Positions 9,010 to 32,733 of a stretch of 64,000 nucleotides of DNA are shown one piece after another. Both the position numbers and the translations under genes were made by a program. How positions within the stretch are numbered: position 1 is the stretch's first letter; each line of letters begins with the position of its first letter. The notes beneath the pieces are model-generated. The model made no database searches and had not been told where the DNA came from. It saw only the letters and a program-made list of their open reading frames with translations. Source of the stretch: Pseudofabraea citricarpa (taxonomy: Eukaryota > Ascomycota > Leotiomycetes > Helotiales > Dermateaceae); contig JAPWGK010000008.1 of NCBI GenBank assembly GCA_029641185.1, forward strand, positions 806,001 to 870,000. The letters are read 5' to 3'.

Positions 9010-9292
9010 TCACTCTAGCTAGGATTTTCAAATGGAGGGGTGAGTCGTTTCTGCGGGCAAGCAAGCACTGAAATTCAAAAGCGTGTTAGGTGTGTTGACT
9101 CAGACCCCACCAAGAGTTTTGCGTGCACGCCTACCAACCACCAACGACCAACCACACGGAGCGGAGCTGAGCATCCGAATTCGCTCCGGATCAACCTTTC
9201 GCCGCCCAAAATTTATTTCTCAATCGGCACTTTTTTGCTCTTATCTTGCTCTGTGATATAAGAGATATTCTACCCCACAACACCACAACACC
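9010..9292. promoter_or_regulatory. Shared divergent promoter region, GRS1 / RPF1
   Basis: A 283-bp gap separates the start of the glycyl-tRNA synthetase (minus) from the start of RPF1 (plus). It must hold both promoters, so the two translation-related genes may be co-regulated. No individual element is assigned. Confidence 0.5.
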
Positions 9293-11133: not shown

Positions 11134-12292
11134 TCAGGCCTTGCAGAAGTCATAACTGCTGTACTCCCTCCCGTCGGTCCACTCAGTCAAGCGATCGAGG
11201 GCGACGGGGTCGATATCACGATTGCTCTTCTGGAAGATGGTCTCGTAGGGGTGGACGTTGGTGCCCTCGTACTTGTCGTTCCACAGCACGTCGCCGTTCT
11301 CCTTGCCGCCGCACGTGGCCTCGTAGTCCTTGGTCTTGTGGAGGCGGCTCATCATGGCATCGACCTTGTAGCCGCCGGCCTTGATGAGCGCCGTGGCGCC
11401 AATCTCGGCGTGCACCGCCGACTTCCACGTGTGAAAGCACGTGTTGATCCCCGGCGGCAGCTGCGACTCGTCGATGCTGTCGTCGTTCGGGAAGTACACG
11501 CCCGGCGTGAAGTTGTCGATGGCTGACTTGGGTGGGAACAGGAGCAGCTCGATCCCGATCCGGTCCGTCGCCCAGATCATCGATTGTACGTGGAACGCTG
11601 GCCAGCAGTTGGCTGTCATACCCACGAGCTAGTAATAAGTCAGTCGCTGGAATATATGTCTTGGATAACTAGTGGGCGTGGCTTACCTTGACTTGATCGG
11701 TTACCCGCTTCAGGTACATGTCGCTCCAGCAAGATTCGGACCAATAGGGTAGGAAGGGACCTCTAAGACTGGCATTCAACATGATGAATTTTTTGTACTT
11801 CTTGTAGAGGTTGTTCCCGGTCAAGACTTCTGCATAGGCACCGATATCGTAGCAATCGTTTGGCCGCTGGATGGACTTGATGTTTTCCCTCTTAGGAATC
11901 AGGTCCGTCGCATCTGATTTTCCGTTCATGATGAAGATGAAATCTGCAGCAGCATGGATTCCGTGCTTGAGGAAGAATTGCAGATTGGTTCGTGCCGATT
12001 CGGTCTCTGAGTAGGCGTAAAGGATAAGTGGGCGATCTGATTCTCCTCCTACTGGGGCATGCTCTGACTCTTCTAGATAGTCCTCATCGGCCGGTGTGTT
12101 CCCTCCTTTCTCGACGGCTTCTTTCCCATCCTGACCCTGTAGTTGTTGTCCGACAGCTGAACTGAGCCCGCCTTGGTTTTGGATGGCAGTCTTGACTGCG
12201 GGCATCTCGAGATACCATATGGACCAGATCAGGAGCAGAACTACTATCGACGCTACGTATGGCGTCCTCGAGGGTGAAGACATGACCGACAT
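11134..12292 (-). CDS. RgpF-like type II membrane glycosyltransferase, copy A
   Basis: Putative Golgi/ER glycosyltransferase. Exons 12292-11687 and 11628-11134 (58-nt intron, phase 0) give 366 aa. A short N-terminal tail and one membrane segment (about residues 12-28) indicate type II topology; a low-complexity stem follows to about residue 86. The catalytic-looking domain has PLILYAYSET, DFIFIMNGKSDA, NDCYDIGAYAEVL, then FIMLNASLRGPFLP (about 169-182), CWSD, HVQSMIWATD and NVHPYE. The pattern of an N-x-C-x-D-x-G-A motif followed by a [LM]NAS-x-x-GP motif recalls rhamnan synthesis protein F (RgpF family), from memory rather than a search. The paralogue at 18710-20108 shares all these blocks and the same intron site. 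An upstream in-frame ATG (12346) would add 18 residues before the anchor; the start at 12292 (MSVMSSPS) is preferred. Confidence 0.8.
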
Positions 12293-15200
12293 GATCTGAA
12301 GATGAATTGTTGTGAAGTGAAAGGAAGTGTTCGAGGTCTGATTCAACCTCTAGTCAGATGGACTCGAAACGGGACGAAGAGACGGGTGTCAGACACTCTT
12401 TAGCAAAAAGATGACAATGCTGAGGTACGCGGCCTACTTCCCCACAGCGCAGACTGCGCCGAGCTAACGCACGAGCTCGGGGATCTTTGGGATTCTATAA
12501 ATGTCGTCGTCGCATTAAAGATCTCCAAGGGAGGGAGGATCAATTCAGTGCCGGCACGGCGAAGACGAGATGAAAAAAAGCGACGGGTACGCAATGAAGG
12601 ATGCCAGCAAATTGAACAAATGCAAATGCGATTGCGCTTCGCTTCGACTTCAAAGCAGAAGACACTCTCAGGAAATCTGGATAAAAAGGACAGAAGAGAT
12701 GCAGCCGGGGGGGGCATTGATAGGGCATATCTGGATGGCTTGCTTCCCTTGCGGCTTTGCTTGCGTAACTGAGTCCGGGAGTCCGGTCCAAAGAGTATAT
12801 TTGTGGAGCAGCACACCCCACTGCTCCTCTTGGTGAGTGGCCATCACTTCCTCGATGCAGGCCTTGTCACCTTGTTATCTCGAGGATCCTCTGGCCGGTA
12901 GCAAGGATGGCCGAGAGAGGGCGAGCGAGTAGGTGAGTGAGTGCTTGAGCAACGGTCGGTTCCTGCTGTACCACGAACGTTTCATTGAGACAATGGCACA
13001 AGTCCCGAATGGCCGCATTGTTTACATCTGACTCTGCAACGTCTATCAGACTTTGGGCACCGGATGGCCGAGTGCAATTGGCCGGTGAGGCTCAGTTGTT
13101 TCCTTGGGGGTCATGGTGCCGCTGGTTGCCAAACGCTTGTCTGTGCTGCTGCAACGGATGCCAAGCGTACGTAGACGCCGAAAAGACCCAGCTGCAGATC
13201 CGATGCTGTGGTGCTGGGGCTGAGGCGTTTAACTCACGATGCCGACGGGAGGAGTGAAATGAGCGAGTGATGACTCTGATGAGATGTCTCTTCTTGATGG
13301 CGTGCTGCGGGGATGAGCTTGGTTTGATCTTCACTCAAGAAGATTACTTAAGATGAACGGAATCCTTCGCTATGGCCGGCGCAGGAAAGGGGCAAGGACT
13401 CAAGGAGGAAGAATGCGAACCTAGAGGATCTGGCCATCGCACAAAAGGTCGCTACTGTACTGTACACTGCACTGTAGAAGGCTGTAACCGAACCATCTCA
13501 GGGGGGACTTGGTCTTGAAGTCTTGGAGGAGGAAGTTGAAGGCCACGAGGCTTTTAGCTTTGCAATACCCTGAATGCCAAGCAGCCAAGCCAGCTAACAC
13601 AAAACCTTAATTGAGAAAGCAGATCGAGCCCAATTCAGAGAGAGAGAGAGCCCTGTTTCTGCTGAGTACAGTACAGTACAGTAGTTCGAGATGTTATCAA
13701 TTGTAGTTGGAAGGTCTGATGGCACTGGTTCAGCGGAATGACAGCTTCAAACTCGTCTATAACAAACTGGTTGATGTCGAGGCATTCTGCTGCGCCCTGA
13801 CGGATCAGTATGTTTGAAGTTTCATCTTTCACACGTGCTTGAAACAACCAAGGTTCGTTCGTACAGGACGTACTCGGAGAACAGAGGCACGACGGCGAGA
13901 GTTCTCGATAACATGTTTTAGTATCTACTGTGCATCTCTATCCAAGTGGTCGAAATAGAACATGACAAGGTTTCGTGTTCTATTGCGGGGCTTCTTCTGA
14001 ACAAGACAATCAAGAGTGGCTCGAAACACTTTTTATTCTTGGTGTGCATCTATCTCGTTCCTCAACGAGATATCTGTATTTCTTATCCTACTTACTACAT
14101 GACACAACAAAACCACGATCTACAATTCAAGAATCTTGCTTTGCGGTGAAATCAGGTAAAAGCATGTTCTCGCAATTCTAGTACCCTGATAAAAAGTCAG
14201 AGAAATAAACCATCATCACATACGTAGTAGAAACACCACCCCTCCTCAAGCGAGCAGAAATAGATGAACTGCCCACCAGGTTCATACAGCACAGTATCAA
14301 GATCAAGCAAACCTAATCTTCTCATACCAGAACCCCTCAATCTCTGTCCTGTAGGGGTTCTCGTCTGTCAAGAGAGGCTTATTCTTTCGAGAACAGGAAC
14401 CATGTCACTCGGAACGGTCATCGGATCTGGATACGAGGTGTTTAAACGGGTGCAGGTTTTGGGTTGATTGCGATAGCTGTGGCTCGACAGATGACTATAG
14501 CATGGGAGGGGGGGGGGGGGTTAATAGAGTGATTCTTGATAAACCATTTCCCCTCGTCTCTTTTGGTTTTTGTTTCTACAAGCCACGTACAATCTAAAGG
14601 CTCTTCTTTTTAACAAAAGAAACAAAAACGAAAAAGGCAAACCAGAGCAAAAAAACCAGAAATGCTTTACTTTTTGTGTTATACTGGTGTGACTTTACTA
14701 GATACCTCTTCCCTTTCACTCAGGCAGAGTCTCGTAAAAGAAAAGGAAGAAAAACAGAAAAAGATATCTACACAGAGACTAGCAGCACAGATTATACCCA
14801 GGGAAAATCAGCAACAAACCCTCACATCTCAATAAAGATTTACATTACATCTCAGGCTGCAAGTTCCATCCAGAGCACACAAGTCTACAGCTTATCATCT
14901 TCTTAGCATCATGACAAGACAAGACAGGACAAGACAAGACAAGAGCCTAGAAACCTCAACCTTTTCTTTAACCTGCACATATATTCCACGTATCTGTGAT
15001 GAATGAATGACAACAGAAGCAGAGATGACAACAGAAACAGATCGTGCATATACCTTAATGTAGTAACGCGGTAATGTTATGCCGCTCCGATACTGCCGTC
15101 CGCCATCAGGTGCTGTTAGAATCAGAGGTTGGTTTGACTGCTGCTATGAGTAACAGCCTCAGGTGTTACTGGAATACTGCTGGGAAGCAAAAGTAGCTCT

Positions 15201-16085
15201 CGGGTAGAATCAGATCAGGTTAAATCAAAGCATGTCATGTATCCGTAGATTTTTTGAGCATCCTCTCAGTCTTTCATTCTCACGCAGAACAATTCAATTC
15301 AATCCAATCCAATCCAATCCAACATGTGCATATACGTCTATTCCAAGCTATGCAAGAGCCAACCAGCTACACATGACAAGTCAACTCACCAAGGCTCTGT
15401 CTAGAGAGAGCCCCTGGCTTCCAGATGTGTAAGACGGACATCGCGGATAGTCAAACACATATCTCTTCTTTTTCTTTTTTTCTTTTCCTCTACGGATGAT
15501 TCCTTCTGCATCCAGAAAGCTGGATTCGAGAATGGGACATTGGATAAACGTCTTTTGATTCTGGTATATATAGATGATAGGAGGGAGAGTGCTTCAAGCC
15601 TCTTCTTGGCTTGGCTACAGCAGTCGAAGAGTATCATCACTATGTTACCGCACGCGAGTTGTATAGATGAGCACAGCACTGACGACCAAGGTAGGGAGGG
15701 AGGGTTCAGCTGATTGAATGCGCATATCTACATATCCAGCAAGCATCACCTCCTTGTGTCAAATGTCTCAGAAACCAAAGGGCATCAACGCAGAACTCTG
15801 AGACAGATGAAGTAGATAGACCTGATATATTTCATCTATTGGTTCGAAGATTCTCCATGAGAAAGGGATGTGATATCCCCTTGATTCCTCGCCTAAAAAC
15901 GCCGGCCCCCCTCGGAAAGAGAAAAAGAGAGAAAGAGGCATCATATATCTCTCTGCCATTTTTTACCCCTCGGAACTATGCATAGGGAAAAGAAGAGGTC
16001 GGACGAGAAGAGAAGCGCTAGAGATACAGGGTACAAAAAACACAGAGATGAGAAAGGAAAAGAAAGATTATCTGCGCGGCTCTTG
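12293..16085. other. Long intergenic region
   Basis: About 3.8 kb with no gene that can be supported. It should hold the promoter of copy A (minus) and the 3' region of the DUF5672 gene ending at 16086. Visible structures are a run of eleven or so G near 14510-14520, an ACAAG tandem near 14905-14943, an AATCC tandem near 15297-15320 and scattered A-rich tracts. Open frames up to about 138 aa occur but lack motifs, splice logic or strand-specific bias. A non-coding RNA or a small gene cannot be excluded. Confidence 0.5.
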
Positions 16086-17231
16086 TCAGCTCGCTGCCTC
16101 TATCGCCCTGGCGGAGTGCGCTACTCCTCCTCCCCCTCCGACGATCGTCCCTTCGTGATTGTCGCCGTCGCACCTCTCCCTCGTCAGCTTCATGGGCATG
16201 ATCATGCTGACTTCTGGGCAGTAGTCGAATATCCTCTTGCGTTGATCTTCGCTTTTCCAGACGGCCTCGGCCAGACTCTCACCTCCGTTGCGGGCATGGT
16301 ATCCCATGGGTTTCTCATGCCAGACGTCTTCCACGGTGAAGTGCTGTTCTTCCTGCGCGCTTGCCACCTTTGCACCTGGGAGCACCGTAATCCTGCGGCC
16401 GAACCACTCGTCCTCGGGTTCCGTGTCATTGTACCGGGACTGGAATCCTAAGATTCTTCGGACTGCCGATATCCTGCGGAGGGAGAGGCCGCCATTCCCG
16501 GCAAATCGGTCCGTGGAGGTTCTGCTGGAAGCATTAGATTTGTATATCTCTCACGCGCGGCTCAAAACACACCTGGGAGCTCCGGCCCAACTATACTCCA
16601 GCCAATCGTTCAGGCTGTCCTGCGAATTGGCGCACATGATGCTGTCGGATTCGAACTTCAGCAGCCATTCCACGCCCGGCAGGTATGTGTCGTAGAAGCG
16701 GAGATCGGTCAGGGTCCTGAAGACGTCCTCTTTGCTATCCACCGACCACGGCTTGGGCATGACGACGAGGTCCAGCTTCCCGTTTGCGATCTGATAGCGC
16801 GTGGCAAAGCTCCGCTGCACGCTGAGCACGCTCTCGTTCGTGCCGACAAACAGGAAGCGCCAATCCGGCGGCACCACCGAGATCATGTGGAGGAGCTGCG
16901 GTACGAGGTGCGGGATGGGCCTGCCCTCGATCAAGAGAGCGACCTTGGACGAGTTGAACTGCTCGCGCGGGTCACGGTTCGGATACCAATCCACCTTGAT
17001 ACCCGGGATGTGCTCGGCGACATCGTTGACTCGATCTTTCGCATAGGCCTTGATGGTCGGTTTGTACGAGGGCAGGAGATGCGCGATGGTCCATCTAGCC
17101 AGCTGTCAGCATCTCCAATGATCCGCGCCATGGCCGACGTACGTGACGATGAGGGACACCACAATCAAGACCCTCGTCCTGTTGATGACGAAGATGCCCG
17201 TTGAGCTGGGTCCGGCAAGTGAGGTCGACAT
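16086..17231 (-). CDS. DUF5672-type membrane glycosyltransferase-like protein 1
   Basis: Three exons, 17231-17143, 17094-16573 and 16521-16086, join in frame for 348 aa. The introns are 48 and 51 nt. A single hydrophobic anchor lies at about residues 19-37 (VLIVVSLIVTWTIAHLL) with positive residues before it, which suggests type II topology. The lumenal domain carries VALLIEGRP, VVPPDWRFLFVG, WLLKFESDSIMCANS, LEYSWAGAP, FAGNGGLSLRR, PEDEWFG and PMGYHA. These match the DUF5672 family as I know it, which is linked to glycan loci. The D-S-[MI]-[LM]-C-A motif could be the metal-binding site; that is inference. The C-terminal end after IFDYCPEV is short and glycine-rich compared with the copy at 24609-25928, so a further 3' exon may have been missed. 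Confidence 0.78.
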
Positions 17232-18709
17232 GATGAGCAGCTTACAACGAAAGGGAAGGAATTACAATGGGGGGACAGCGAGAGGGAGATGTCGTCTGAC
17301 GGTCGTACACGAGGTTAGCTAGCTCGCGGGCAGGCTAAGATGGATAATTCGAGGTTCGAGGTTCGAGGCTCGAGGCTCGAGGCTCCCTGTTCAGAATTCC
17401 GTCGTCCTATCTGGTGGGTGATTGTCGCATGTTGGTGTTGAGTGGATTGAGGTTCTTTGAAACATACAAACAGCCAGATATGTGCCAATCCGCAGTTGAC
17501 ACAGGAGGATTTTAAAAACGTGGGCCAACACAAAGAAAATGCGACGTCTGCAACAAAGAGGAATTGCTTGCCTGGAATCGGCAAGAGAGCAGTTGCGTCG
17601 CAGGTAAACTCTGTTCACGGCTGTTGTTGCAGTACTTGGTATTACTTACCGTAAGTCAGTGGGGGGGAGGGAGGGACGAGGGACGAGGGGGTGGTTGGTA
17701 ACTTGGTAGGGGCTTACGAACGAACGAACGCCGGGCCTCTCGGGTGCCCCTGCGAACATCACCTCAGATGTCAGGGTAAAGGGTAATTTGGGAACGACAA
17801 CGCTACACGAACCTGGTTACGGGGGACTTAAAGCAGCAAGGATAATGGATCCTTTGGGAAACCGTAAAATGACATATTTACGGCTGCAATATTCTAATAT
17901 TCCCCTTATTTGTAAGCATATGTATTTAGTCTTTTGGCTTGACGGGCCGCTACGCTACTTACTGTACTTGCAAAGCAGATCCGATAGTTCGGCACAAGGT
18001 TTATTAACCCTTCACACTTTACATTCATTCATCCATTACTCGCCCCCCACGGCTGAGGGAACCATTCCTGCTATCGCCATGACGACCTCGACAACAGAGT
18101 TAGTTACTCAGTTATTGTTATTGGAACCTCCAGTCTCGAGCTGTTCCCATCAATGATCGATCATCGGCCTTTCCCGATCCTGGCCGGTTGGCAGTGCTGC
18201 TGTGCCACAACCTCTTATCGGGCGGCCCTCCCCTCCGCTCCCAGAATGTCTGCTTGCAACAGCTGCGTGGTCTTTTGCGGAGAGTCGTCGTCGAGTGGCG
18301 CGTGGGTGGTGAGCTGTGCTGTGCTGTGCTGTGGAAGGGCGTCGCTATCTGGTGGCTGATGTGGATATGATCATTCCTGCCGCCCTCGCTAGAAGGGAAT
18401 AGTGTCCGCCATGTCCCAAGTAGGGGCGTACGGGCGGGAGATGCCTCGACTCCCTTTAAAGAGCTGAGCTTAGGAAGAAGAGCTATCTGCTGCGTCGTTC
18501 TAGCCTTGCAGACAGATGTCCCCGAGATGCGTCCCCCTTGGCTCTAGAGCAAGCGCCCTATCGCCGAGTCAACTTTCTAAACTCTAGCCCCAGGACCCTC
18601 ACCGAGCAGAGGCTCCGGTACCGTACATGCCAGTGCTGCTGTCGTCGCTGAATCTGATGTGAACAGGAGACGAGGAATCAGAGGGGACCTCTCAACACAT
18701 ATCCTCCTC
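17232..18709. other. Divergent intergenic region between two glycosyltransferase-like genes
   Basis: About 1.5 kb between the DUF5672 gene (minus) and RgpF-like copy B (plus). It should contain both promoters. A GAGGTTC/GAGGCTC tandem lies at about 17351-17385 and a TGCTGTGC tandem near 18313-18335. No gene is supported. Confidence 0.55.
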
Positions 18710-20108
18710 ATGGCTGTCTCAACCCGATCAATAGGGCTGAGTGCCATCTTGACCATACTCCTCATCTCCTTTCTTTCCAAGTTGAGATCAGTAGGTATCT
18801 CTACCTCTCGCCAGTGACGTGCAGTCTCTAACACCAGCCAGTCTCCGCCTCTTCCTCCTCCACAGTATGCAACCCAGAGTGGTCCTGCAATCATAAATGC
18901 TGCCACGTTAGAATCGGCTCAAGAAGACCTGCTTGCGGGAGTGACTCCGCCCGTTCCTAAAGATCCCTCTACGGACCTGAACAATGAGCCCGTTCGAGTA
19001 TTTATTCCACCGGCAATCATCCCACCCCAGGACGACGTCTGGGAACTGCCGAGTGGGACGGAGAATGGGAAAGAAAAAGTCCCACTGGACCCCTCGACAT
19101 CTGATGAATATCACAAGGAGTCATCCGCGCACAGAGAGCCGAATGGGAAGACAGCAGCATGGCAGACAGAGCGCTGCGATTATGACCTGAATTGCCCCAA
19201 GCTCGAGAAGCTGACGTCGTCGTATACCAACGGGGTCGATTCCAAAGACAAGCCCTTGATTACATATGCATACTTCGAGACGGAGTTCGGCCGAGCGAAC
19301 CTGGAATTCTTCGTCAGTCATGGATTGCACGATGCAGCAGACTTTATCTTCATCCTGAACGGCGAGACGGATGTCGACGAGGCCATCATCCCGAAGGATA
19401 AACCGAATATCAAAGTCGTCAGACGGGACAACCAATGCTTCGACCTGGGTGCACATGCAGAAGTGCTCGGGAGCGAAGAGAACGGCAAGGCGTTGAAGGA
19501 CCAGTATAAATACTTCATTTTAATGAACGCATCAATCCGGGGACCATTCTTGCCACACTGGAGTCGGGAATGCTGGAGCGATGCATACCTGTCCAAGGTC
19601 AACGACAAAGTAAAGGTAAGTCTCCCCTCGAAGCAACAGGTCGTGTGAAAATCTCTAAGACGCCGTCCAGCTCGTCGGATCCACGCTCAACTGCCAGAAC
19701 AACGCCGACACGGCACACGTGCAGTCGATGATCTGGGCGACGGACTCGGTCGGGCTCAGCCACCTGCTGGACCCGGAAGCCATCGGGCAGGAGTGCTTCG
19801 ACACGCTGCAGGCGGCCATGAACGCCGAGGTGCGCACGACACCGTACCTGCGCTCGCTCGGCTACCACGTCGATGTCATGATGTCCAGCTACCAGCTCGA
19901 GAAGGACTACGCCTACATCGACAAGCACTGCCACGAGACGGGCGACCAGCTGTACGACAACGCCTACTGGGGCTTCAACGTCCACCCCTACGAGCTTATC
20001 TTCATGAAGAGCCACCGCGGCATCGACGATGCCATGCTGGACAAGATGAGCGAGTGGAGTGACGGGAGTGGCTATAGTAGCTATGACGTCTGTAAGAGTT
20101 CCGGCTGA
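18710..20108 (+). CDS. RgpF-like type II membrane glycosyltransferase, copy B
   Basis: Paralogue of the gene at 11134-12292. Exons 18710-18790, 18866-19615 and 19671-20108 give 422 aa. The short first exon supplies the anchor (MAVSTRSIGLSAILTILLIS, membrane segment about residues 8-23) and ends at phase 0. A stem of about 130 residues follows. The domain has PLITYAYFETE, DFIFILNGETD, NQCFDLGAHAEVL, FILMNASIRGPFLP, CWSDAYL, HVQSMIWATDS, GFNVHPYELIF and SYDVCKSS. The last intron splits VK from LVG in phase 0, exactly as in copy A. Relative to copy A the stem is longer and a C-x8-C pair (CDYDLNC) is added before the domain. Function as a rhamnosyl- or deoxyhexosyltransferase is inferred from RgpF resemblance and from the dehydratase and transporter nearby. 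Confidence 0.8.
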
Positions 20109-21173
20109 AGTGATCAGTGAGACGAGGGATATCCTTTGTTCTTTTTTTCTTCTCTTTTTTCTTGTGGTCTTTTTTCTTCTTCGTTGAGGATGTGGGGTTT
20201 ACGTTTGCGCTTACTTTACAGAAAGGAGTTCTTGGGAGTTGTTGCACCGGTTTTCCTCTTCTCTTTGGCTTAGTGCGCTTGGGGTATAGGTACTTGTAAG
20301 CCAGTAGAGAGCTGAGCAAGGACGTAAAAGCAGGCGGTAGATAGATGGGGTGGGTCGGTAGACAGTTGGGTAGAGTGGGTAGAGGGAGAGGAGGGGGAAG
20401 AAGGAACAAAAAACCGAAGTTGTATAGAGTTTGTATACTGGAGAAGAGGAACCGAATTGAATCGAATGATGAATAGATTTAAGTTCTTGTGAATGTTCAT
20501 TCATGCTCACGTGAAATTCCCAGTGCCGACCCTCAGTTGTTCCCGAGTCTTTTCCCTCGCTTCATTCTATTATCCGCCGTGCCTAGGGCATCTGCATCTC
20601 ACCGCATACATACTCTCTCGCGTACCCCGGGTGGTAAAGCATATACATACATACATGCGTCCGTCTGTACCCTCATGATCGTATCCACTCAACTTACTCA
20701 CTCACTCATGCACATATGATGAGACATTTTGAATTCTGAATATTTTTATAACTTCCTATACCTAATCTACTTAGGTTTTCCTTCCTGGTGACATGGCATG
20801 AGCGTCCATACACGAAAGGGGAAGAAAAGCGAAACCAAAATCGACTTTCTATCTTTCCCTTTCCCGTTTCCCATCTCTATATGTGAAAAGCCAACTCCCT
20901 CCTAAAACACCTCGGCTGGGCTTCTTGTCCTTCTTCATTTTTGGGTCTGCTCTACCGTACCCATGCCGATTCGATTCCCCGTCCCAAAAAGACAAAAAAC
21001 AATAGAACTCCTCCTGATTCTAAGCGCACCCGGGTCCCAAAGGTCCAACCCCCAAAAAGCTAACAGCGCGAGATAAAAAAGATACAGAAATAAACAATAA
21101 GTAACTTAGAGAGGAAGAGAGGAGGATTTGTCTGTCCTATCATATTCATAGTCATTGGTTGTGTTGGTGAGAC
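20109..21173. other. Convergent intergenic region
   Basis: 3' regions of RgpF-like copy B and of the second DUF5672 gene. A T-rich/CT-rich tract follows the stop codon (20135-20180). No gene is seen. Confidence 0.6.
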
Positions 21174-22350
21174 TCATGTATCCTTGATGGGATCCGTCGA
21201 GCACAGCTTGTACTCGGGACACCACTCGTCTAGACTGACCATGCCCTCGCCCATCCAGCGGTGCACCTGGTGTACGCCGAGCGGGTGCGGGAAGTCAATA
21301 GTTTCGACGCTGAAGGTGCGCGCGACTTCCATGGTGGGGAGGTTGACGGCGCCGGGATCCGTGGGGAGGATACCTGCCTCTTCGTCGCGTTCTTGAAGGG
21401 TAAGTAGTCTGCATCATGATTTACATGTTAGCTTATGTCCCTCTTTCTTGGGAGCCTGCTTTTCTTTGCTTGGGCTTTTGGGGAAACACGAACCGGTTAT
21501 AGAACCACTGGTCTTCAAATCGATCACCCTGCTTCTGCGTCGTAGACCAGTCCCATTCCTCAAGGATGCGGATCGTGCTGCTCCTCTTCCGCAGGCTCAG
21601 GCCGCCATTATACCCATGGCCGAGATCCGCGCGGATTGGAGCTCCCACGAAGTCGTAGATGAAGAAGTCATCCACGCTGCGCGCCGCATTGGCACAGAGC
21701 ATGCTATCACTTTGGAAGATGAGGATGTTCTCGGCTGGGGCCAGGCTGTCCCACAGCCAGGACTTGGTCATGAACTCGTTGACACTATTTGAGTTGGTGA
21801 AGAGGACGGATGAGGGCAGGATCCGGATCTGGATCGTGCCTCGGCGAAGATGTCTGGAGAGTGCTGCTGAGGTCGAAAATTGTCCAACTGCTTCGGCGGA
21901 CGTGTAGATTAGAATGGGCCAGTCTGGCCCGAGTACAGTGCTGAAATGCAGGATCAAGGGGATCAAATTCATTCGGAATCGCGTCTCGATTATGACGGCC
22001 GCTTTAGTTGTGATGTTGCCGTCGAAGGTATCTCCAGCTTCCACAATACTCACATTGGGGATTTTCGGATCGGCTTTTGCTGCTGCTGTCGGTGTAGGCT
22101 TTGGCTTGAGCTTTTGTACGCCCGCTGTATTGCTACTTGGTATGGTTATCAAGCCTCCAGGGCCATGAGGCGCAATGCCCTGAGGTTCTGCTGCTTCGGG
22201 ATCTTCTGTATAACCACTATATACGCTGAGCACGGTGTGCTGGGGAAATGACAACTTGATAGTCCATACGAACAGCAGGACGAAGAACGCCGAGAAGACT
22301 ATGTTTCTGTTTCTCCTCTTGCGTTCTTCTGTGGTCGTTGGCATAGCCAT
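21174..22350 (-). CDS. DUF5672-type membrane glycosyltransferase-like protein 2
   Basis: Exons 22350-21494 and 21408-21174 (85-nt intron, phase 2) give 363 aa. The donor is a weak GTTCGT, but frame and motif continuity (WFYNR to LLTLQERDEEAG) support the join. The N-terminus is basic (EERKRRNRN) followed by a membrane segment at about residues 17-33, a type II anchor. The start at 22350 is chosen because the anchor follows at once; an in-frame ATG at 22653 would add 101 residues without any recognisable motif. A P/T/A-rich stem leads to AAVIIETRF, LGPDWPILIYTS, ILIFQSDSMLCANA, YDFVGAP and GYNGGLSLRKR. The sequence is the most divergent of the three DUF5672 copies and ends with a cysteine pair (WCPEYKLC). 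Confidence 0.8.
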
Positions 22351-24267
22351 ATTCGGTAATTTTGGCTCGCTCGCTGGATTTGATACTGGGTGCTTGAACG
22401 AATGGACGTATGAAGTGGTTATGCGTTTTCCAACGGATGAAGGTAAAATTGGACAGTTCCTATGCAGCCACAGACATCTCTTGGGCGGAAGAGAATGCGT
22501 CAAAGCGAGTGTGATCTGCCAACTCGCAATTGGGGGATTGCAATTGCTTGGAGGGAGGATCTGAAATGAGAGTGGCCCACGATCGACGGGGAAAGAAATT
22601 CGGAGTGCGTCGGGACTCAGGAATGATGGGAAGCTGTAAGGAATGATCTTCAACGCCAGCTTTTTCTTCAGCAGCCCAAGGAGTATGCAGGACCACTACG
22701 ACGGCAAGTCCCCTTGTTTGCACGGCCACAGGGAGGAAATGGAGTGAAGGAAAAGACGAAAGCAGAAAGGAAAGGATGGCGTGCGTAGAGGCACGGTACT
22801 CGGAGTGTATCTCTTAAGTCTCCATGATGACTGGGGAGGTGTTATAATGTGGGGGGTGGACTTTCAGCCCCCTGGACGCGATTGATTGATCGCGGCGCCC
22901 ACGTTTATCGGATGGCACTTGGTCGCTTCGTGAAGAGCCGACATGGATGGGCTCGCCAGGGGCATGAGGCATGGAAGTTGTGTATCAAATAATTCCTTCC
23001 GTACTTGCTTTACCGGTGACGCCAAAGAAGGTTCAGCACCAAGATGGGACGGCGTAGTGCAGAATACTGTCGATGGTTATCGCCATGAACAAGCCCTGTC
23101 TTTGTGCTCAGTTTCAGCTTGATCATGAAGACCGACTGCCTGCCGTGACTAGTCTGCTGGGCGTGAAGCATGGTCTCTGGATAATCGAGGTCGATGCAAT
23201 CCTATATTGCAGATGATAGACTGGGTGGTTGCGAAGCTGTTTTGGGGCTTAGTTGTGAATATTGACTCGTGGGCAGAGTCTGGGTCTCTGATGGCGACGA
23301 CCTCGATCTTTTTTGAGAGCATTCGAGTCGAGGTCTATCGAATGCCTGAGCACATGTATGTGGGACTCTCCAGCTGGACACTAAGTTGTTAAGCTGGGCG
23401 GGTGGAGATGATGATGATGCGAGGTCTGGGTTGGTTGGGAAATGCTGCTCTGGTACAGAGACGGAGACGGAGTACCACTGAGCAAAGCGGCAAGTAACAC
23501 GTGCCAGAATCTGTCGGTTGTCTGTTTGCAGCCCGACAAACAAAGGCCACGACGCTGATTCATCATTGATCACAATTTTCCCATTTTGGGTCCATGGAAC
23601 CACAGCCACCGCAGGCGTCGTCGTCGTCGTCAACATGGCGCCATCCGCCCTCTACAACTAGACAGCAATATCGATATCAGAGCTCAATATCCCTCTTGAC
23701 AGCCGTGGTGGCCAGCTGGACCCTCGGCGGCCTTGTCGGGACGGGGGACCCCTCGAGAAGGAAAAACAAGCCTTTTAACAATGCTTGGCAAGGAGCATTT
23801 TTACCTGAAATCCTTGGATCCCTTGGACGTGTTTTATCTCCTTTTATGGTATAAAATCCTGCGAGGGCGGAAAACCTTCATGGGGGTCTCTGCGTTTCAT
23901 CCCATCTTCGTATTCCCGCAAAGGCAGCTCTCGAATCCTCGTGTCAGCACGCAAATTGGCATATTCCAAATGATGATGCTAATGATTGATTGTGACAATG
24001 TGACGAACACAAAGATATTGTGGCATCGAGTCTGTTACATGGCCTGTCCTTGACTCGTCCAGGTCCTGTGAACGATTTGCTTTCCCCCCCTCCCATCCAT
24101 GGACCACACTTCGCCCGTACCGGGTACTGTAGGCTGCAGCTAGGAAGATAACACCTATAGCAGCGCAATAGCAGAGCGACTCCTGGGAAGAATTGGCGGG
24201 AAATCCACTGCGGGACTCCAGGGATTTTCAACCCCCTCGATTAAGTCCGCCCTTGGCACATGAGAGA

Positions 24268-24299
<32 letters not shown>

Positions 24300-24608
24300 T
24301 ATTGCAGCCTGCGACCTCAGGCCACCCAAATCAGCAGCATCGCCGCCCGCGGAACCTGAACGGCATGGCGCATCACGTTAAGCTTCAGGCTTCCGTTTGC
24401 TGCCAGACTTACTGTACTGTACTTCCCGTACAACCTGCACTACATTCTTCCCCAAGTAATCTTCTTCCTCCCCACCCACCCGTCGAACCGTAATCGTGTC
24501 ATGAACTACCTCTCGTGACAAGACGGCAATCGTTAATTGTGAGCGCACAAGAGGCAACAGGAAGACCTCTCTGCCAGTGCCAGTGCCAGTCTTGCACTTT
24601 ACGCGACC
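22351..24608. other. Divergent intergenic region
   Basis: About 2.3 kb between two divergent DUF5672 genes; both promoters should lie here. A (GA)n tract is at about 24263-24299. Open frames are short and unconvincing. Confidence 0.55.
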
Positions 24609-25928
24609 ATGGCCACTAATTCGTCGGCCGGTGACATGACCATTGAGGATGCCTGGCAATCCGTCCAGACAGCAGTCCTGTCCCTATGGGCGAAGACCAC
24701 ACGGCGAATGCGCGCAACGGGTGCTGTAGTATTATTCTTGTACGGGCCCACGAACTCCCTCTCCCATGGCCAGCCAGTGCTAACTCCTCCATAGTCTTCT
24801 CTGCATCTTTCTTTTCGGCGGGCCGTCAATGCCAGATACACAGTCTTTACCAAGCCTACCTCAGATCCCCAAGGTCTCGCTCGACTACGGCGAGGGCCCC
24901 ATCTCTCCCTATAATGTTTCCAAGGTCGCCCTCCTAATCGAAAACCGGCCGAATCCCATCCTCGCCCCTCTCCTCCTACATTTCATGTCGGTGGTGCCGC
25001 CGGACTGGCGCTTTCGATTCATGGGCTCCCTCGAGTCGGTGGCCCACGTAAATTCATCCACGGCCATCCGGCACCAGGTGGAGGCAGGGAAGCTCGATCT
25101 CACCTATATTCCCGCCAACATGTCGACTGCGGGGCAGGAGATGATCAGCAGATTCCTCACCACCCTCTGGTTGTACGAGACCGTTCTGCAACCCGCGGAA
25201 TGGCTCCTGATCTTCCAGACAGACAGCATGCTATGCGCCAACAGCAGGCAGAGCTTGAATAACTGGCTGGATTACGATTGGGTTGGCGCACCATGGAATC
25301 CCACCGCGCGCTTTGGAGGCAATGGAGGTCTGTCATTGAGGAGAGTGAGCACCATCATCGATGTCCTGAAGAACCAAGAGAGAATCCATGATTCCGAGCC
25401 CGAAGATGTCTGGTTGACCGATCGATTGGGTCATCGCCCAGGAGCAAAATTGGCCAATGGTACCGCGTCTCTCACGTTCTCAGGAGAGATGTACAGTGGA
25501 GACGGTGAGAAGTTAGACACGGGAAAGAAGACCAAGCCGAATGAAGATCCGACGAAATTCGGCGAGGTCGCTGGGACTCTGGTCAAGGGAATCGATGACT
25601 GGAGAGAAGGGTTCTACGAACCAATGGGATACCACACCGGTGGATCAGGCCGGACTTTGCATGGTCCTATCTGGGGTACGAAAGAGATGCGGAAGCACAT
25701 CTGGGATTACTGCCCCGAAGTCAAGATGATGCTTGAGATGGATGCAGCCAAGGTAAGTTAGCAAGAAGGGGATTTTACGGGATCCGCTAATTATTTTGAT
25801 AGTACGTGCCCGGAGACTGCCATTCGGAATGGAAAAGATGGGACGAAGGGGAAGGCATGGGACAAGCAACAGAGATCATCGACGGGGTAGAATATCCCAT
25901 GTTGCCAGCAGGATTAAGTCCTTGGTAG
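24609..25928 (+). CDS. DUF5672-type membrane glycosyltransferase-like protein 3
   Basis: Exons 24609-24739, 24795-25752 and 25803-25928 give 404 aa. The first intron (55 nt, phase 2) interrupts the membrane anchor, which reads GAVVLFFLLCIFLFGG at about residues 38-53 only after splicing; this strongly supports the join. The domain has VALLIENRP, VVPPDWRFRFMG, WLLIFQTDSMLCANS, WLDYDWVGAPW, FGGNGGLSLRR, PEDVWLTDR, PMGYHTGG and IWDYCPEV. It is closest to the gene at 16086-17231. The last intron (50 nt) opens a final exon encoding a 41-residue tail (YVPGDCHSEWKRW...) absent from the other two models. Predicted to act in the secretory pathway lumen on glycans; donor and acceptor are unknown. Confidence 0.82.
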
Positions 25929-26559
25929 CATGGCCTCTACCTCTCTGTTGCTTAATTTTTTCTTTTTCTTTCACTTCTCTTCGACCGTTGTTTTTTTGGA
26001 GGCGACCATGTACGTTATTGTACGTATCAGAGGAAGACCGGCTTGGGGTTTCGGTTTGGGATTGGGTTTCTGGGAACGGCACATGGGAAACTGGGCGTAT
26101 TTGGTGTTTCGATATATTACTCTCTTTCCCCCCTGATAGATAGATAGGTCGGTGGGTGTAGGCACACCACGCATAGCATAGGTCTGAGGAAAAGAAGAAG
26201 AAAGCAATACGAAGTGTTCAAGCTCCGTTGCGTTATGTCAGAGCTGGCCGAATGACTTCCCCAGGAGAGAAAAGAGAAGAGAGAATAACATGCATGCGGC
26301 GAAAGAGCATGAAAATCAATCCCATCTAATCACTCTCTCTAATCGAGAAACCGAACTGGGCTGTGACAGATATACTCTACCATACCATACCCTACCCTAC
26401 CCTACCCTACCACGGCAGCGCAGGCAGGGACTAGGCTAGGTCTAGCACAGCAGAATCCAACTATATACTCAGTATATTCATCAGCATTTCATCAATCAAT
26501 CGATTTATGCCCAAGACATGTATCCATCTATGTTTTCATTCATTTATGTGCACGCCCAA

Positions 26560-26611
<52 letters not shown>

Positions 26612-27568
26612 GACCAACCAACGAAGGCAGAAGAGGAAAAGAAGATGGATGGATGTTGGTAGGTGACATGCAAGCCACAATATAACCGCCCCATCCCTCT
26701 CCCTTGAAAACAAAACAAGAAACAGTAAAGTAGTCCCGATGACATGCTACCTGCCACATACCACATGCCCCACGCCATACTCAGCTGAGCAAGATGTCGA
26801 ATATCAAAGAAGAAGAAAAAAAGAAGAAAAAAAGAATTCTGATCCTGATTATAGTTTTGAGTTTTGATTCTGATTCTGATTCTGGTTCTGGTTCTCTGCA
26901 TCTGTTCTGTCTAACTAAGTGGTATATTCTCCATCCTCCTCTCCCTCCCGAGATTTTAGCTATTGATTTTTATCCTCTTCCTTCTCTACACGTCCGTAGA
27001 CCGCGCTTGTACCCTGTGCGTGCGAAAGAATGCAAAAAAAAGAAAGGAAGAAAGAAAAAAAAAAAATATGAAATGAAAATGCAAGTGCAAGCTGTTGATA
27101 TCACCAAATAAAACAGCGACACAAAAGAGAGAAAAAAAAAAAAAAAAAAAAAACGCCTATCCCCCAAGAACAACAATAGGTATGCCCACACTCCGGAGAA
27201 CCCCCCAAGCCGAAAGGAGCACAAGGAAACGGACGATCTTTTTTTTTTGGGGTGTCTTTTTGTTCTGAACCACGCAAGAGGATCATCCGTGCTCTGGCAG
27301 TTGCGTGTGTGTTTTTTCTGTCTTGCTGGTGGTTGTATGTCTGTTCTTACATGGGACGCGCGGTCAAAGGATGAATGAACAACTCCTCCCCACGTCCACG
27401 CTCCCCCTTCCGCCTCGCTTTTTTTTTTCCCGCGGCCGATCGAGGCCGACGAAGCGACCCCCCTTGTTCAAAGACACCGGGAGCAGCCAGACCGTCCGTC
27501 CGTACAGTAGCTTATCGACAAGCCCCGACGGACGAGGACGAGCGACGAGGGACAATCGCATCGCCTCT
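25929..27568. other. Convergent intergenic region with repeats
   Basis: About 1.6 kb of 3' flanks. It contains a TACCC tandem (about 26381-26412), a CCAGAA hexanucleotide tract (about 26560-26611), a TTCTGA tandem (about 26868-26892), poly-A/T runs at about 27056-27066, 27131-27152 and 27240-27248. Open frames here are repeat-driven. Confidence 0.6.
26560..26611. repeat. CCAGAA hexanucleotide microsatellite
   Basis: About eight to nine copies of CCAGAA in perfect tandem. The complementary frame encodes an artificial WFWFWF-type peptide. It is non-coding in this annotation. Confidence 0.9.
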
Positions 27569-29209
27569 TTATGCTTTCCCACCCGTCGCTGCTTTGTGCT
27601 TGAGCATGACCATCGAGTATCTAGAGACCAACGGCAAGTTAGCTACCGCAATCAGATGAGGTGATATCATGTCATAACCGCGCAACAATACTTCTTCCGG
27701 CTGCTTTTTTTCTTGTTTGCCACGAGGAATGCGCACTTGCATATCGAGCTCGCGCCTCTCTCCCACCCACCCGAAACATCTTGAGGCTATGCCAAGGTGC
27801 AGGAAAGATGAGAGAGCATTATTTGGCTGCAGACTCGACCCAATAATGCCATGGTGATCGGCACCAACGGGTGTGTCGCAGGCTGGGCTAGTGATGTGTG
27901 TGAAGGAGTGGGAGACAAAAGGCAAAAATGTAAAATTGCGGAGTGGAACTTACGCGATGATTCCGCCCACGGCGATGAAGACGCCGATGATGGACTTGTC
28001 GCCAACGGCACGTCCGGACGTCATCCAGCCCAGCGCGACGATCGAGCACGTCTTCAGGTGGCCGACGACCGTACTTGACACGGGGCCCGTTTGGGCAATG
28101 ATGAAGAACTGTGACATGTTGATCAAGCAGGCGAAGAAGCCAGACTAAGGGGTGTTATATTAGCCAAGCCCGTATACCGGATTCCGAGAGTTCCCAGACA
28201 GCTCATAATCATTTCTGGGGTTCTTGGCAGATCAGGCAGAGGGATTTGGGAAAAACTTACCATCATGATCATAACCCATCGGCTGACAGGGACCTCGGTC
28301 CATACGGGGAAAGTATCGACAAAAGGAATAACGTAGAGGAGCATGAATGCTGCCAATGGGGCCTGGTTGAAGAGCAACTGCATGCTGTTCATCTGGAGCT
28401 TCTTGTGATAGCTGGCGATCCAGACCGTATAGATGGAGCTGGCAAAGATCCCAGCGAAGGCAAAGATAACTCCCAAACTGCTGGTGGTCTTGACGGTTGC
28501 GTCCGCGCTTGGCAGAGAATCATAGTATGAGACCATTCCCACTCCCAAGCAAGCTGGTACCAGAGCGTAGATTGCGTTTCTGGGAAGGGTGGATTTGTAG
28601 AGAACAAAGTTCATGAGCGCAACGGTGGGCGTCAGGAGAATTCGTGCGACTTGGTAGAAGGTGACGGTAGAAAATGCGAGTGACAGGTTCGGGAGGATCA
28701 CATTAAGGGCCATTGCAATGGCCAGAGGGAAGATATCCTTGATCGCAACCCTCCGCGGGGAGAAGAAGGCAAATCGGGGCCTCGAGAGGGTGAATAGTGT
28801 GAGCCATGTTATGAAAAAATGGAAGGCCGCGAAAGTAAGCTGGGCGAGCTTTAAGGACGGATCGGAGAAGATGGCTTTGTTGGTGAAGACCTGTGTAATA
28901 AATCAGCTTCTGCTCCTCTCAAGCAGTGACATGTATGCTCACAATTCCTATGGTGGCTAGTGTATTCACCACCATCCAGATCACCGCAGACTGCGTCGAG
29001 CCCTCTGAGGACTTGGGTTTCTCCTGCTGGATGGGTTGCGGCAGCAATTCAGCCCTCTCGATGTCGTCGCCAACCTCTAATTCCTCCGGGGACTTGAGCT
29101 TGACGAAGCTGCCTTCCGATCTCAAGTCGCCATTCTTCTCGTCGTATGCGTCTGCCTCGGTGACCGAGGAGCTCACTGAGGGAGCGCGGTCCGCTGATCG
29201 TTCGGCCAT
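27569..29209 (-). CDS. Nucleotide-sugar transporter, TPT/SLC35 family
   Basis: Multi-pass Golgi/ER antiporter importing a nucleotide sugar. Exons 29209-28943, 28890-28261, 28144-27954 and 27620-27569 join in frame for 379 aa. The introns are 52, 116 and 333 nt. The cytosolic N-tail is acidic (about residues 1-68). Membrane segments begin at VIWMVVNTLATIGIVFTNKA, and about ten helices follow. Family features are NKAIF near the first helix, QLTFAAFHF, the LPNLSLAFSTVTFYQVARI stretch, and GHLKTCSIVALGW near the end. The last exon is only 52 nt; it restores the typical ending GGIIAYSMVMLK and a K-rich tail. Substrate cannot be read from sequence. The TPT type includes plant UDP-rhamnose/UDP-galactose carriers, and the dehydratase 2 kb away makes UDP-rhamnose a reasonable guess. 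Confidence 0.88.
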
Positions 29210-31258
29210 TTCGGAAGTGGTGATGAAAGTGTCTAAGGAGTGTGGTGGTAGTGGTGGTGTTGCTGAAGAAGAAGTGAAGAGACAATGAAAAGAAACAGGG
29301 CGAATAAGGTGGTGAGAACTGGGCGTTGAGTTGTGATATTATTATGTCCGCATTCCTGGAGGAGCGAACGTGGATGTGGGATCTTGGGTGCTGGGTGCTG
29401 GGGATTCCTCCGCTGGGCTCGCCTGAGGTCAACGAAATGATTCGAGCAGGGACTTGCCGCTGGGAATGCTCAAACTGCGCAGTGGGCGAGAGGTGGAGCA
29501 GTAAGTCTGAGTAGTGGGCAGTGGGCAGTGGGCAGTGGGCAGTGAGTACGGAGTAGTAAGTGAGTATGAATAGTACGAACAGTACAGTAGTGAGTGGGTG
29601 CAAGGGAGAAGGTATAGATAGAATCCGACAGGAGGGGTGTTACATGTGTGCCCTTTTTACACTTCAGACGACGCGCAGGTACGTACTGTACTTATTCAGT
29701 TCAGGGCTGCTTTCGTGGACTATGGACCCTATAGTGGCTGCTTGCAGTGTTCGCAGAGCTGTTTAGAGAGTGGACGCTAAGCTTATTATTACCAGGACTA
29801 TAGGCGGTTCAGCGAGAGCCTCTTGTTATTACAGTGCACAGTGCAGAGCTATCAACTGAACGAGTGCCTGGGGGGGCGCAGTGCTAGGTCGCTTCGGGGC
29901 ATGATTCCACTGATTACAGTTAAATTTACTGAGGCTGCGCTGCCCTATGGCTGGGCCATGGCAGGCTAGCGGGGCTTCACAGGTCTCCCCTCGTGTCGGC
30001 CCTGGACTCCCTGTACTGTCGCTCCCTGTCGCTCCCTGTAGCTCCCCGTGGCTCCCTGTGGCTCCCTGTAGCTCGCTGTAGCGTCCCCTCGCTGCCCCTA
30101 CAGTGCGATCGGCATGGTTTCATTCTTATCGTTCGGGCCTTGAGCCAGATCTTCAAACCGAGGACTCGTAAGATGCTGATGAGTCGCTTCCACTATCACA
30201 GTTATTCTTGTAGCGACGAGAAAACAACAACAACAATCACAACACACCCGTCACCCCGCTGATCCTTCGTCTTCGTATCCTCGCTGATCACCGAAATAGC
30301 CAGCGGGTGCTCACTGCTCAGTGAGTAAGCACCAGCCCGGGGAAAGGAAAGGATGCAAGTTCAAACACGAGGGAATGGCTTCACTCGCTTCGACATCCCC
30401 AATCACAGAATCATCGTAGGGGCGCACAGCCACACCTCTCGAGAGTCGAGTCTCGACAACCCCTGGACGACCCTGGGCCCCATTTCTGTATGATTTCACC
30501 CCCATCCCATCTCGTACTGTAGTCTGTAAGTGTACGCAAACATAACGAACGGGCTTAACCTTCAGTACGAGTCTCGAACCCCCCTTTAATGATATAAGGT
30601 TCATAGGCAATAGTACAGGACAGGTTGAACGCAGCACAAGAAGGATTATTGTCAGAACACCTTCATACAGTACCGTAAATGTAAAAGTAAAAGTACCACA
30701 ACCTAGTCCCAGTTGGTTCTTCAGCAGATGGTGGCTCTCCTGCCGCCCTGTATCGGCCTCCCTCTTCACTCACTCACTCACAAACATTCTTTGCGTGCAG
30801 CCTTGCTTACCCGCCGTCCAATAACCGGCCGGCTCGACGGCAAGGGAGCAAAGGCACCTGTTCGTAAAATGATGTCCTTCCTTGCGCATAGCATGATACT
30901 GTAAGTAGCATACCGCAGGATTGGCATCATTTTGTGCAGAAGGACAAGTAGACTTTTACAGTATACCCATTGAGCGAGCTAATTACCCCTCGCCTGGGCG
31001 TGCTTGATTCCCAAATTCTGTTGGCCTGCGATTTCAGACACGCGTACATCGGCCGTGATCCAAATAAAAGCTATCCCCCACCGCCAATTCCGTCTTCTCA
31101 GCCTTCCGGACAGAGTTCAGCCCATTGTTCTGAAGTGTACATTCTGCAATCATCCCCCTCGCAAGCACTTGAAGCCCTCCAGTCCCACCATCTACACTCC
31201 GGCGCAATCTCGAGTCGAGTCGAATCTCATCTTCCTCCGCCTGCCACCTCTTCGCAAC
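29210..31258. promoter_or_regulatory. Divergent promoter region, transporter / dehydratase
   Basis: About 2 kb separates the divergent starts of the nucleotide-sugar transporter and the 4,6-dehydratase. It contains a GTGGGCA tandem (about 29514-29543) and a CTCCCTGT/AGCTCCC tandem (about 30008-30075). No gene is supported. A shared regulatory region would fit a common pathway, but no site is identified. Confidence 0.45.
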
Positions 31259-32733
31259 ATGTCTGCAAAACACAGCAATGGGGGTCCCCCAAGTGAGTGC
31301 TCCATGAGCGTTGTGCGCCGCTGCGAGTTACTGAGAATTACCTCTGATCACTGATTCGGGCAGCACCAGCAGCATCCTCCAATGGAGAGCAGAATAAGTT
31401 CTTCGAGGACTTTGGCGTATGGAAGGATGCGCCAATTCTCACCGGCAGCACCAAATTCGAGCCCTTACCCGACGTGAAGAACATCATGATCACTGGCGGA
31501 GCGGGATTCATGTGAGCTGAGCTGAGAGCATGCGTGTGTCGTCGTGCGTACTGACGAATGTAGTGCCTGCTGGCTGGTGAGACATTTGACCCTCACATAC
31601 CCTGACGCATACAACATCGTATCTTTCGATAAGCTCGACTACTGCGCGTCTCTGAACAATACCCGAGTCCTGAACGACAAGAGAAACTTCAGCTTCTACC
31701 ATGGCGACATCACAAACCCCTCGGAAGTCATGGACTGCCTGCAGAGGCATAACATCGACACCGTCTTCCACTTCGCCGCACAGTCACACGTGGATCTGAG
31801 TTTCGGAAACTCGTACGCCTTCACCCACACCAACGTATACGGAACACATGTGTTGTTGGAGAGCGCGAAGAAGGTCGGCATCAAGAAGTTCATCCACATC
31901 TCAACCGACGAGGTCTATGGAGAAGTCCGGGATGATGCAGATGATCTGCTCGAGACTAGCATCCTTGCACCCACGAACCCGTACGCGGCCAGCAAGGCAG
32001 CGGCGGAGATGTTGGTCCACTCATATCAGAAGAGTTTCAAGCTGCCCGTCATCATTGTACGCAGCAACAATGTGTACGGGCCGCATCAGTTCCCCGAGAG
32101 TAAGCCAAACCGCCGCAAGAAATCTGGGTTGGTCGCTAACATGCTTCAGAAATCATTCCCAAATTCAGCTGTCTGTTGAACCGAGGACAGCCTGTAGTCC
32201 TGCACGGAGACGGGACCCCAACCCGGAGGTACCTCTTCGCTGGTGATGCTGCCGATGCCTTCGACACAATTCTTCACAAGGGTACGATGGATCAAATCTA
32301 CAACGTGGGCTCGTACGATGAAATTTCCAACTTGACCCTCTGCTCGAAACTCCTCACCTACCTCCAAATCCCCCACGAGACACAAGAGCAGCTTCACAAC
32401 TGGGTGAAGCACACTCACGATCGTCCATTCAACGACCACAGATACGCTGTCGACGGTACCAAGCTCAGACAATTAGGGTGGGACCAGAAGACCAGCTTCT
32501 CGGACGGCATGGCCATCACCGTTGACTGGTACAAGCGATTTGGCGAGCAGTGGTGGGGAGACATCACCAAGGTTCTCACGCCTTTCCCAACCGTGGCTGG
32601 GTCCGAAGTGGTTGCCGATACGGCTCCGGTCGAGGATGTGAAGGAAGACATGATTGTAGACAGCAACGATACCATGACGCTAGCCAAGAAAAGAAAGATA
32701 GAGGACGGCAGCGGCGTGGCCGTCGTGGCTTAA
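31259..32733 (+). CDS. NDP-glucose 4,6-dehydratase (UDP-rhamnose pathway, SDR)
   Basis: Converts UDP-glucose (or dTDP-glucose) to the 4-keto-6-deoxy sugar, the first step to rhamnose. Four exons, 31259-31292, 31364-31511, 31564-32099 and 32150-32733, join in frame for 433 aa. The Rossmann glycine motif is TGGAGFIA (residues 55-62), interrupted by an intron in the I61 codon. The catalytic set is complete: STDE (residues 174-177, with T-D-E in place as in RmlB-type dehydratases) and Y201-x3-K205 in NPYAASKAAAE. Also seen are FDKLDYCASLNN, HFAAQSHVD, RSNNVYGPHQFPEK and GDGTPTRRYLFAGD. The C-terminus carries a short KKRK-containing tail after the fold. Fungal UDP-glucose 4,6-dehydratases of Magnaporthe and Botrytis are the nearest described relatives. 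UDP rather than dTDP as substrate is inferred from fungal biology. Confidence 0.9.

Follow-up and report, generated by a model that had tools for sequence, protein, structure and literature searches.

Do seven adjacent genes in a fungal genome together supply a rhamnose donor and use it to build a glycan? This question is raised by a 64,000-nucleotide stretch of Pseudofabraea citricarpa DNA (contig JAPWGK010000008.1, positions 806,001 to 870,000; here called the window), in which seven intron-containing genes, A to G, occupy positions 11134-32733. The two ends are the stop codons of genes A and G. The hand-built spliced models (GT..AG introns) are all open, and the introns and the relatives of the window genes indicate a filamentous ascomycete. 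The host assembly measures 44 Mb, and the window lies on the contig numbered C42 here. A preliminary description had announced seven recognisable glycan-type genes in about 21.6 kb, and both their number and their order are borne out by the spliced models and profile searches. The set comprises two RgpF-like glycosyltransferase candidates (A and C), three DUF5672 proteins (B, D and E), a TPT/SLC35-type nucleotide-sugar transporter (F) and a predicted uridine diphosphate (UDP)-glucose 4,6-dehydratase (G). It makes a well-supported candidate rhamnose-glycan locus. We consider it fairly probable that the locus serves to provide UDP-rhamnose and to use it in making a surface or secreted glycan in the Golgi.

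The walls of several ascomycetes are known to contain rhamnose, and the sugar is also part of the surface glycans of Sporothrix and Scedosporium. The fungal rhamnosyltransferases with reported activity that were found are RHT1 and RHT2 of Sporothrix schenckii, next to putative homologues. They are reported to transfer rhamnose from UDP-rhamnose to fungal glycans or a glycolipid (PMC9145935; PMC13429783). Both were found through a profile of plant origin and are members of the GT-B clan (PF00201/PF04101/PF03033; PMC9145935; PMC12295706; PMC13429783). With this locus, members of two families about which little is understood, the RgpF-like and the DUF5672 proteins, become named candidates, and the assembly of fungal rhamnan can be tested directly. 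In line with what had been said before, no description of a fungal cluster of such make-up, or of RgpF-like or DUF5672 proteins tied to fungal rhamnose, was found in the open-licence literature. DUF5672 appears there in a bacterial secretion system context, with nothing on a fungal cluster.

Gene families and predicted folds

Gene G (plus strand, exons 31259-31292, 31364-31511, 31564-32099 and 32150-32733; span 31259..32733) encodes 433 aa, the start of its second exon being one among several open choices. The product scores 229.5 bits against GDP_Man_Dehyd (PF16363, cut-off 27). Its catalytic set is intact, as was stated earlier: the TDE, YxxxK and GGxGFI motifs align with those of the solved dehydratases 6vlo and 6bi4. 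The bacterial deoxythymidine diphosphate equivalog TIGR01181 is missed (324.5 vs 365.1 bits). By analogy with the fungal enzyme of PMC5698552, G would use UDP-glucose and yield UDP-4-keto-6-deoxyglucose.

Gene F (minus strand, four exons, 27569..29209) encodes a transporter of 379 aa. It scores 27.6 bits against TPT (PF03151), where the cut-off is 30, and an orthologue with 98% identity (P0121) is annotated with PF03151. By description, F can be likened to the Arabidopsis UDP-rhamnose/UDP-galactose transporters and to the TPT-domain proteins NST1 and NST2 of Magnaporthe oryzae, all of which are nucleotide-sugar carriers into the secretory pathway; the reported cargo of NST1 and NST2, however, is nucleotide mannose/glucose, which differs from that proposed for F (PMC10013753).

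The DUF5672 profile (PF18922, cut-off 24.4 bits) is passed by all three genes assigned to it. These are gene B with 91.7 bits (348 aa; minus strand, exons 17231-17143, 17094-16573 and 16521-16086; span 16086..17231), gene D with 116.8 bits (363 aa; minus strand, exons 22350-21494 and 21408-21174; span 21174..22350) and gene E with 107.7 bits (404 aa; plus strand, exons 24609-24739, 24795-25752 and 25803-25928; span 24609..25928). Genes A (366 aa; minus strand, exons 12292-11687 and 11628-11134; span 11134..12292) and C (437 aa; plus strand, exons 18710-18794, 18825-19615 and 19671-20108; span 18710..20108, the first intron being the boundary of lowest certainty) score 16.1 and 12.8 bits against RgpF (PF05045), below its cut-off of 25 bits. 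The family assignments made beforehand thus stand for B, D, E and G, whereas the RgpF assignment of A and C fails the cut-off and the TPT assignment of F stays just beneath it.

For A and C, the label RgpF is best read as a remote resemblance. The profile PF05045 matches 46 of 74 A/C-family homologues at an expectation value (E) of up to 0.1, with 3.1e-6 as the best value; these 74, which form the A/C-family alignment, were picked from the best 120 of 384 matches. When the host genome was scanned exon by exon with PF05045, nothing was found at E up to 0.001. Like bacterial RgpF, A and C have a (weak) profile match around their central motif region, and the same sugar is proposed for them; unlike it, they fall below the cut-off and are single-pass anchored eukaryotic proteins. 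In prokaryote genomes, a scan with the A/C-family alignment found one relative, a protein from a cyanobacterial metagenome-assembled genome (L047:2053-4017). It consists of a GT2 domain and a C-terminal A/C-family-like domain (25% identity) with the motif FLNASVRGPF. This protein has no RgpF profile match at E up to 0.1, and its genome has no PF05045 match at E up to 0.001. The domain was matched in two of 386 genomes sampled from the same phylum, one of the two being its own genome. The same alignment found no relative in viral contigs.

A simple hydropathy scan (19-residue window, threshold 1.6) detects a single N-terminal hydrophobic segment in each of A-E, in agreement with the single-pass topology described previously; F has six segments and G has none. 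As is general for type II transferases, A-E would be located in the Golgi and face its lumen. For one A-type (PVAG01_02266) and one E-type (PVAG01_02262) orthologue from Phlyctema, a GT-A-like fold is predicted. The solved folds closest to these models are those of glycogenin, GnT-I, LARGE1 and the galactofuranosyltransferase AfGfsA. In both types, the metal-binding DxD after the fourth strand is absent. At this site, the A type carries NAS-(I/L)-RGP, with Ser, Arg, Gly and Pro invariant in 74/74 homologues, and the E type carries TDS, with Asp and Ser invariant in 63/63 homologues. The placement of the motifs, after strands 159-164 and 181-185, was taken from the predicted models. The GT-B profiles PF00201, PF03033 and PF04101 have no match in A-E at E up to 1, and a sequence search of the Protein Data Bank returned no credible relative of the A type, the E type or F.

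Gene copies in the genome and linkage in related fungi

The genome paralogue counts are lower bounds (exon-by-exon search, with the best candidates scored only). Within the 44 Mb, a query with gene A brought up no RgpF-like gene other than A and C, and G is the only close dehydratase, six other places matching partially at 23-35% identity. A query with F recovered F alone, so that no paralogue of it was detected in the genome. These findings are new here, as is the tie of UDP-rhamnose enzymes to these transferases and the transporter. DUF5672 is present in at least 12 places, three of which lie inside the locus. In 400,000 trials of random placement on 44 Mb, a 21.6 kb interval held three of 12 DUF5672 genes 63 times and both RgpF-like genes 400 times. 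Both groupings are rare under random placement, and the clustering exceeds chance. Genes B and E share about 43% identity, while D is nearer to four DUF5672 paralogues from outside the locus (42-45%) than to B or E. A recent tandem duplication as the origin of the triple was therefore rejected. Two more DUF5672 genes, mutually divergent, are separated by about 9 kb on a different contig (C29:269281-278640; L003 and L006), and inspection of long open reading frames (ORFs) by eye, with no profile search, revealed no recognisable glycan-type neighbours.

The second UDP-rhamnose enzyme, NRS/ER, is encoded on contig C5 and is not linked to the locus. It was found with an Arabidopsis fragment, which gave two matches, the larger at 64% identity. 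The gene is modelled at 298 residues, and a stretch of 275 residues from it matches the solved structure 4qqr, a '3,5-epimerase/4-reductase' (E 2e-97). No glycan-type neighbours are recognisable by eye in the long ORFs around it (no profile search was made), and a second UDP-rhamnose pathway gene was searched for inside the cluster and not found. The best match of the RmlD profile in the genome (C4:1085319-1086065; L027, L036) was rejected as the reductase, as it is a homologue of the methionine adenosyltransferase 2 beta subunit. Such a homologue is a trap when UDP-rhamnose pathways are counted with this profile.

The UDP-rhamnose pathway is reported across the Ascomycota, with losses in the Eurotiomycetes (PMC8092308). 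Since it is this widespread, G and NRS/ER are ordinary in themselves. Compared to the pathway of Botrytis and Magnaporthe, G is the counterpart of DH and the C5 gene that of ER; however, the account in PMC5698552 is concerned with the enzymes and, in that part, names no linked transporter or transferases.

Linkage in other fungi was read from locus tags and from contigs of equal size, within the best 120 of 384, 964 and 7991 matches. The match rows are cluster representatives, and the linkage cases amount neither to a full census nor to a rate. Phlyctema vagabunda (Helotiales, Dermateaceae) is the closest named relative among the matches listed. Its orthologues are 74% identical for A and C, 91% for B and E, and 98% for F. 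The order E-C-B-A is kept there (PVAG01_02262, 02264, 02265 and 02266), and the contig that carries F is equal in size. The tag between E and C (02263) is free for D, which was not seen among the matches listed; nor were the tags of F and G.

Smaller parts of the set recur in further genera. In Coleophoma crateriformis, F (08474), E (08475) and B (08477) are close together, with A at 08459. Genes F and E have consecutive tags in Mollisiaceae sp. and Diplocarpon rosae, as do F and C in Cadophora gregata and Oculimacula yallundae. Two tags separate C and F in Diplocarpon coronariae, and E and C in Rhynchosporium secalis. The barley isolates of the latter, used in the wall study considered below, may presumably now be named R. 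commune. In Chlorociboria aeruginascens, B- and D-like matches fall within one 665-residue model (P0140), F follows two tags further, and G is on a contig of equal size. Genes E and G are separated by three tags in Stromatinia cepivora, and F and G are consecutive in Hymenoscyphus albidus. The contigs of F and the A-type gene are of equal size in Lachnellula arida and L. suecica. In Lachnellula occidentalis the A-type gene is on a 76,120-base contig and is putatively linked to G, by equal contig size only. Colletotrichum caudatum (Sordariomycetes) has G and an A-type gene, both on a 17,846-base contig. A looser linkage, on one long contig, is seen in Coleophoma cylindrospora, Tricladium, Sclerotinia and Xylogone. 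The taxonomy was checked for Phlyctema, R. secalis and C. caudatum; we take the other named cases to be mostly Leotiomycetes. Some public models near the homologous loci look fused, namely Oculimacula P0010 (RgpF-like plus a CN-hydrolase domain) and the Chlorociboria model P0140 with its B- and D-like DUF5672 parts.

Proposed function and its alternatives

In the proposed mechanism, G would convert UDP-glucose to UDP-4-keto-6-deoxyglucose in the cytosol, and the unlinked NRS/ER would turn this product into UDP-rhamnose. The latter would be imported into the Golgi lumen by F. There, the anchored, lumen-facing A-E would assemble and cap a rhamnose-containing glycan, for which side chains of a mannan or glycoprotein are the likeliest form. 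The strongest candidates for the rhamnosyl transfer are A and C. A further proposal goes beyond the locus and is put forward tentatively, as a realistic but less than even possibility: the A/C family, and perhaps also the DUF5672 proteins of the cluster, would be undescribed Golgi rhamnosyltransferases of filamentous ascomycetes. They would be type II GT-A enzymes with NAS replacing DxD, possibly metal-independent, and their genes would adjoin those for the supply and import of their UDP-rhamnose, within a glycan cluster that is conserved in part. Bacterial GT6 is a precedent for metal independence. In chemical terms, the wall of R. secalis is listed with 5.7 mol% terminal and 1.3 mol% 2-linked rhamnose (PMC7388969 Table 2, there citing Pettolino 2009), and the same table leaves rhamnose unlisted for ungerminated Blumeria conidia, N. 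crassa, A. fumigatus and S. cerevisiae. The wall rhamnose of this relative lends independent chemical support to the role in UDP-rhamnose use.

Several points weigh against this role. The scores of A and C miss the RgpF cut-off, as given above. The transfer of rhamnose from UDP-rhamnose onto a glycan, proposed for A-E, is alike to that reported for RHT1 and RHT2, but A-E have no GT-B domains and the A and E types are predicted to be GT-A-like. A Botrytis mutant without UDP-rhamnose appeared normal, according to PMC5698552. In Diplocarpon rosae, D. coronariae and three Drepanopeziza brunnea assemblies, A lies apart from C, E or F (the contigs differ in size). The same holds for Bisporella sp. 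PMI_857, Pseudogymnoascus sp. VKM F-4514, Colletotrichum falcatum and Apiospora phragmitis, and E and G are apart in Pestalotiopsis sp. NC0098, Pseudomassariella vexata and Neopestalotiopsis clavispora. Some of the unlinked A genes may reflect assembly breaks. Given these cases, C, E, F and G form a tighter core among the matches listed, with A as the loosest member. The additional genera with an unlinked A (Drepanopeziza, Bisporella and Pseudogymnoascus) do not shift the odds of the readings, since they are not what links C, E, F and G to one another. The expected conservation in relatives is thus seen in part, as partial linkage and as the E-C-B-A order of Phlyctema, but A is often unlinked. 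Likewise, the idea that all seven genes fit one pathway gains from the partial linkage, the sole close dehydratase and the NRS/ER gene elsewhere in the genome; the donor sugar of A-E, the substrate of F, the Golgi location and the acceptor, however, are what we infer, and for the donor sugars this is a further point against it.

The locus could also be a real Golgi glycan locus in which A-E use other donors (e.g. UDP-galactose, UDP-galactofuranose or guanosine diphosphate-mannose), with the dehydratase supplying a minor residue or adjoining by chance and rhamnose maybe attached by an RHT1/RHT2-like GT-B enzyme. The abundance of DUF5672 in the genome fits this, as does the range of donors spanned by the nearest solved folds (from glycogenin to AfGfsA). 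In addition, the R. secalis wall contains 12 mol% 5-linked galactofuranose (PMC7388969), and RHT2 silencing is reported to reduce glycan rhamnose in Sporothrix (PMC13429783). We regard such a use of other donors as possible, yet rather unlikely: G is linked to a member of the set in Stromatinia, Hymenoscyphus, Chlorociboria, Colletotrichum caudatum and (by equal contig size only) Lachnellula occidentalis. That the neighbourhood stems only from conserved gene order among related fungi, without a shared function, appears improbable. Retention of neighbours was seen without a baseline from other gene pairs, and orthologues as similar as those of Phlyctema (74-98%) make long shared blocks possible. 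However, all seven are sugar-nucleotide, transporter or predicted glycosyltransferase genes, uninterrupted by gene-sized coding-like ORFs; partial linkage persists across several genera and once in another class, while the order breaks elsewhere (A in Diplocarpon and Drepanopeziza).

It would be most surprising if UDP-4-keto-6-deoxyglucose served a non-rhamnose role here, such as a TGDS-like enzyme rescue, with the linkage to transferases being secondary. The animal TGDS is reported to make this compound, a mimic of a UXS1 reaction intermediate, so as to preserve enzyme function (PMC12488480). However, the same genome holds a full NRS/ER gene, and the unreduced keto sugar is described as toxic in Botrytis (PMC5698552). 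A locus that provides UDP-rhamnose and uses it for a glycan made in the Golgi remains the preferred reading.

Intergenic and flanking sequence

The run had been described as uninterrupted, and at the level of gene-sized ORFs no unrelated gene lies between A and G, as judged from the scores of the gap ORFs. Among the ORFs of at least 50 codons scored in the six intergenic gaps, no further gene-sized coding-like ORF was found. The best has 51 codons and 0.272 bits per codon and the next scores 0.215, compared to 0.234-0.343 for genes A-G; the score was trained on the cluster genes and five flank ORFs, which biases it toward genes. No Rfam family was matched across the window.

On the left, the locus is flanked by a Brix-domain gene (ORF 9257-10531). 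The right flank (35085-56704) starts with a methyltransferase-domain ORF (35085-36101) and further contains a weak match to the major facilitator superfamily, a sugar transporter, a GH5 cellulase and an aldo-keto reductase, with no obvious relation to the cluster. The gap between A and B (12350-16050) is a 3.7 kb gene-free stretch that is AT-rich in part (14001-16000 at 43% GC). Short tandem repeats, seen by eye, accompany F and G: a CAGAAC-type repeat at about 26558-26612 and a GCTCCCTGT-type repeat at about 30005-30085.

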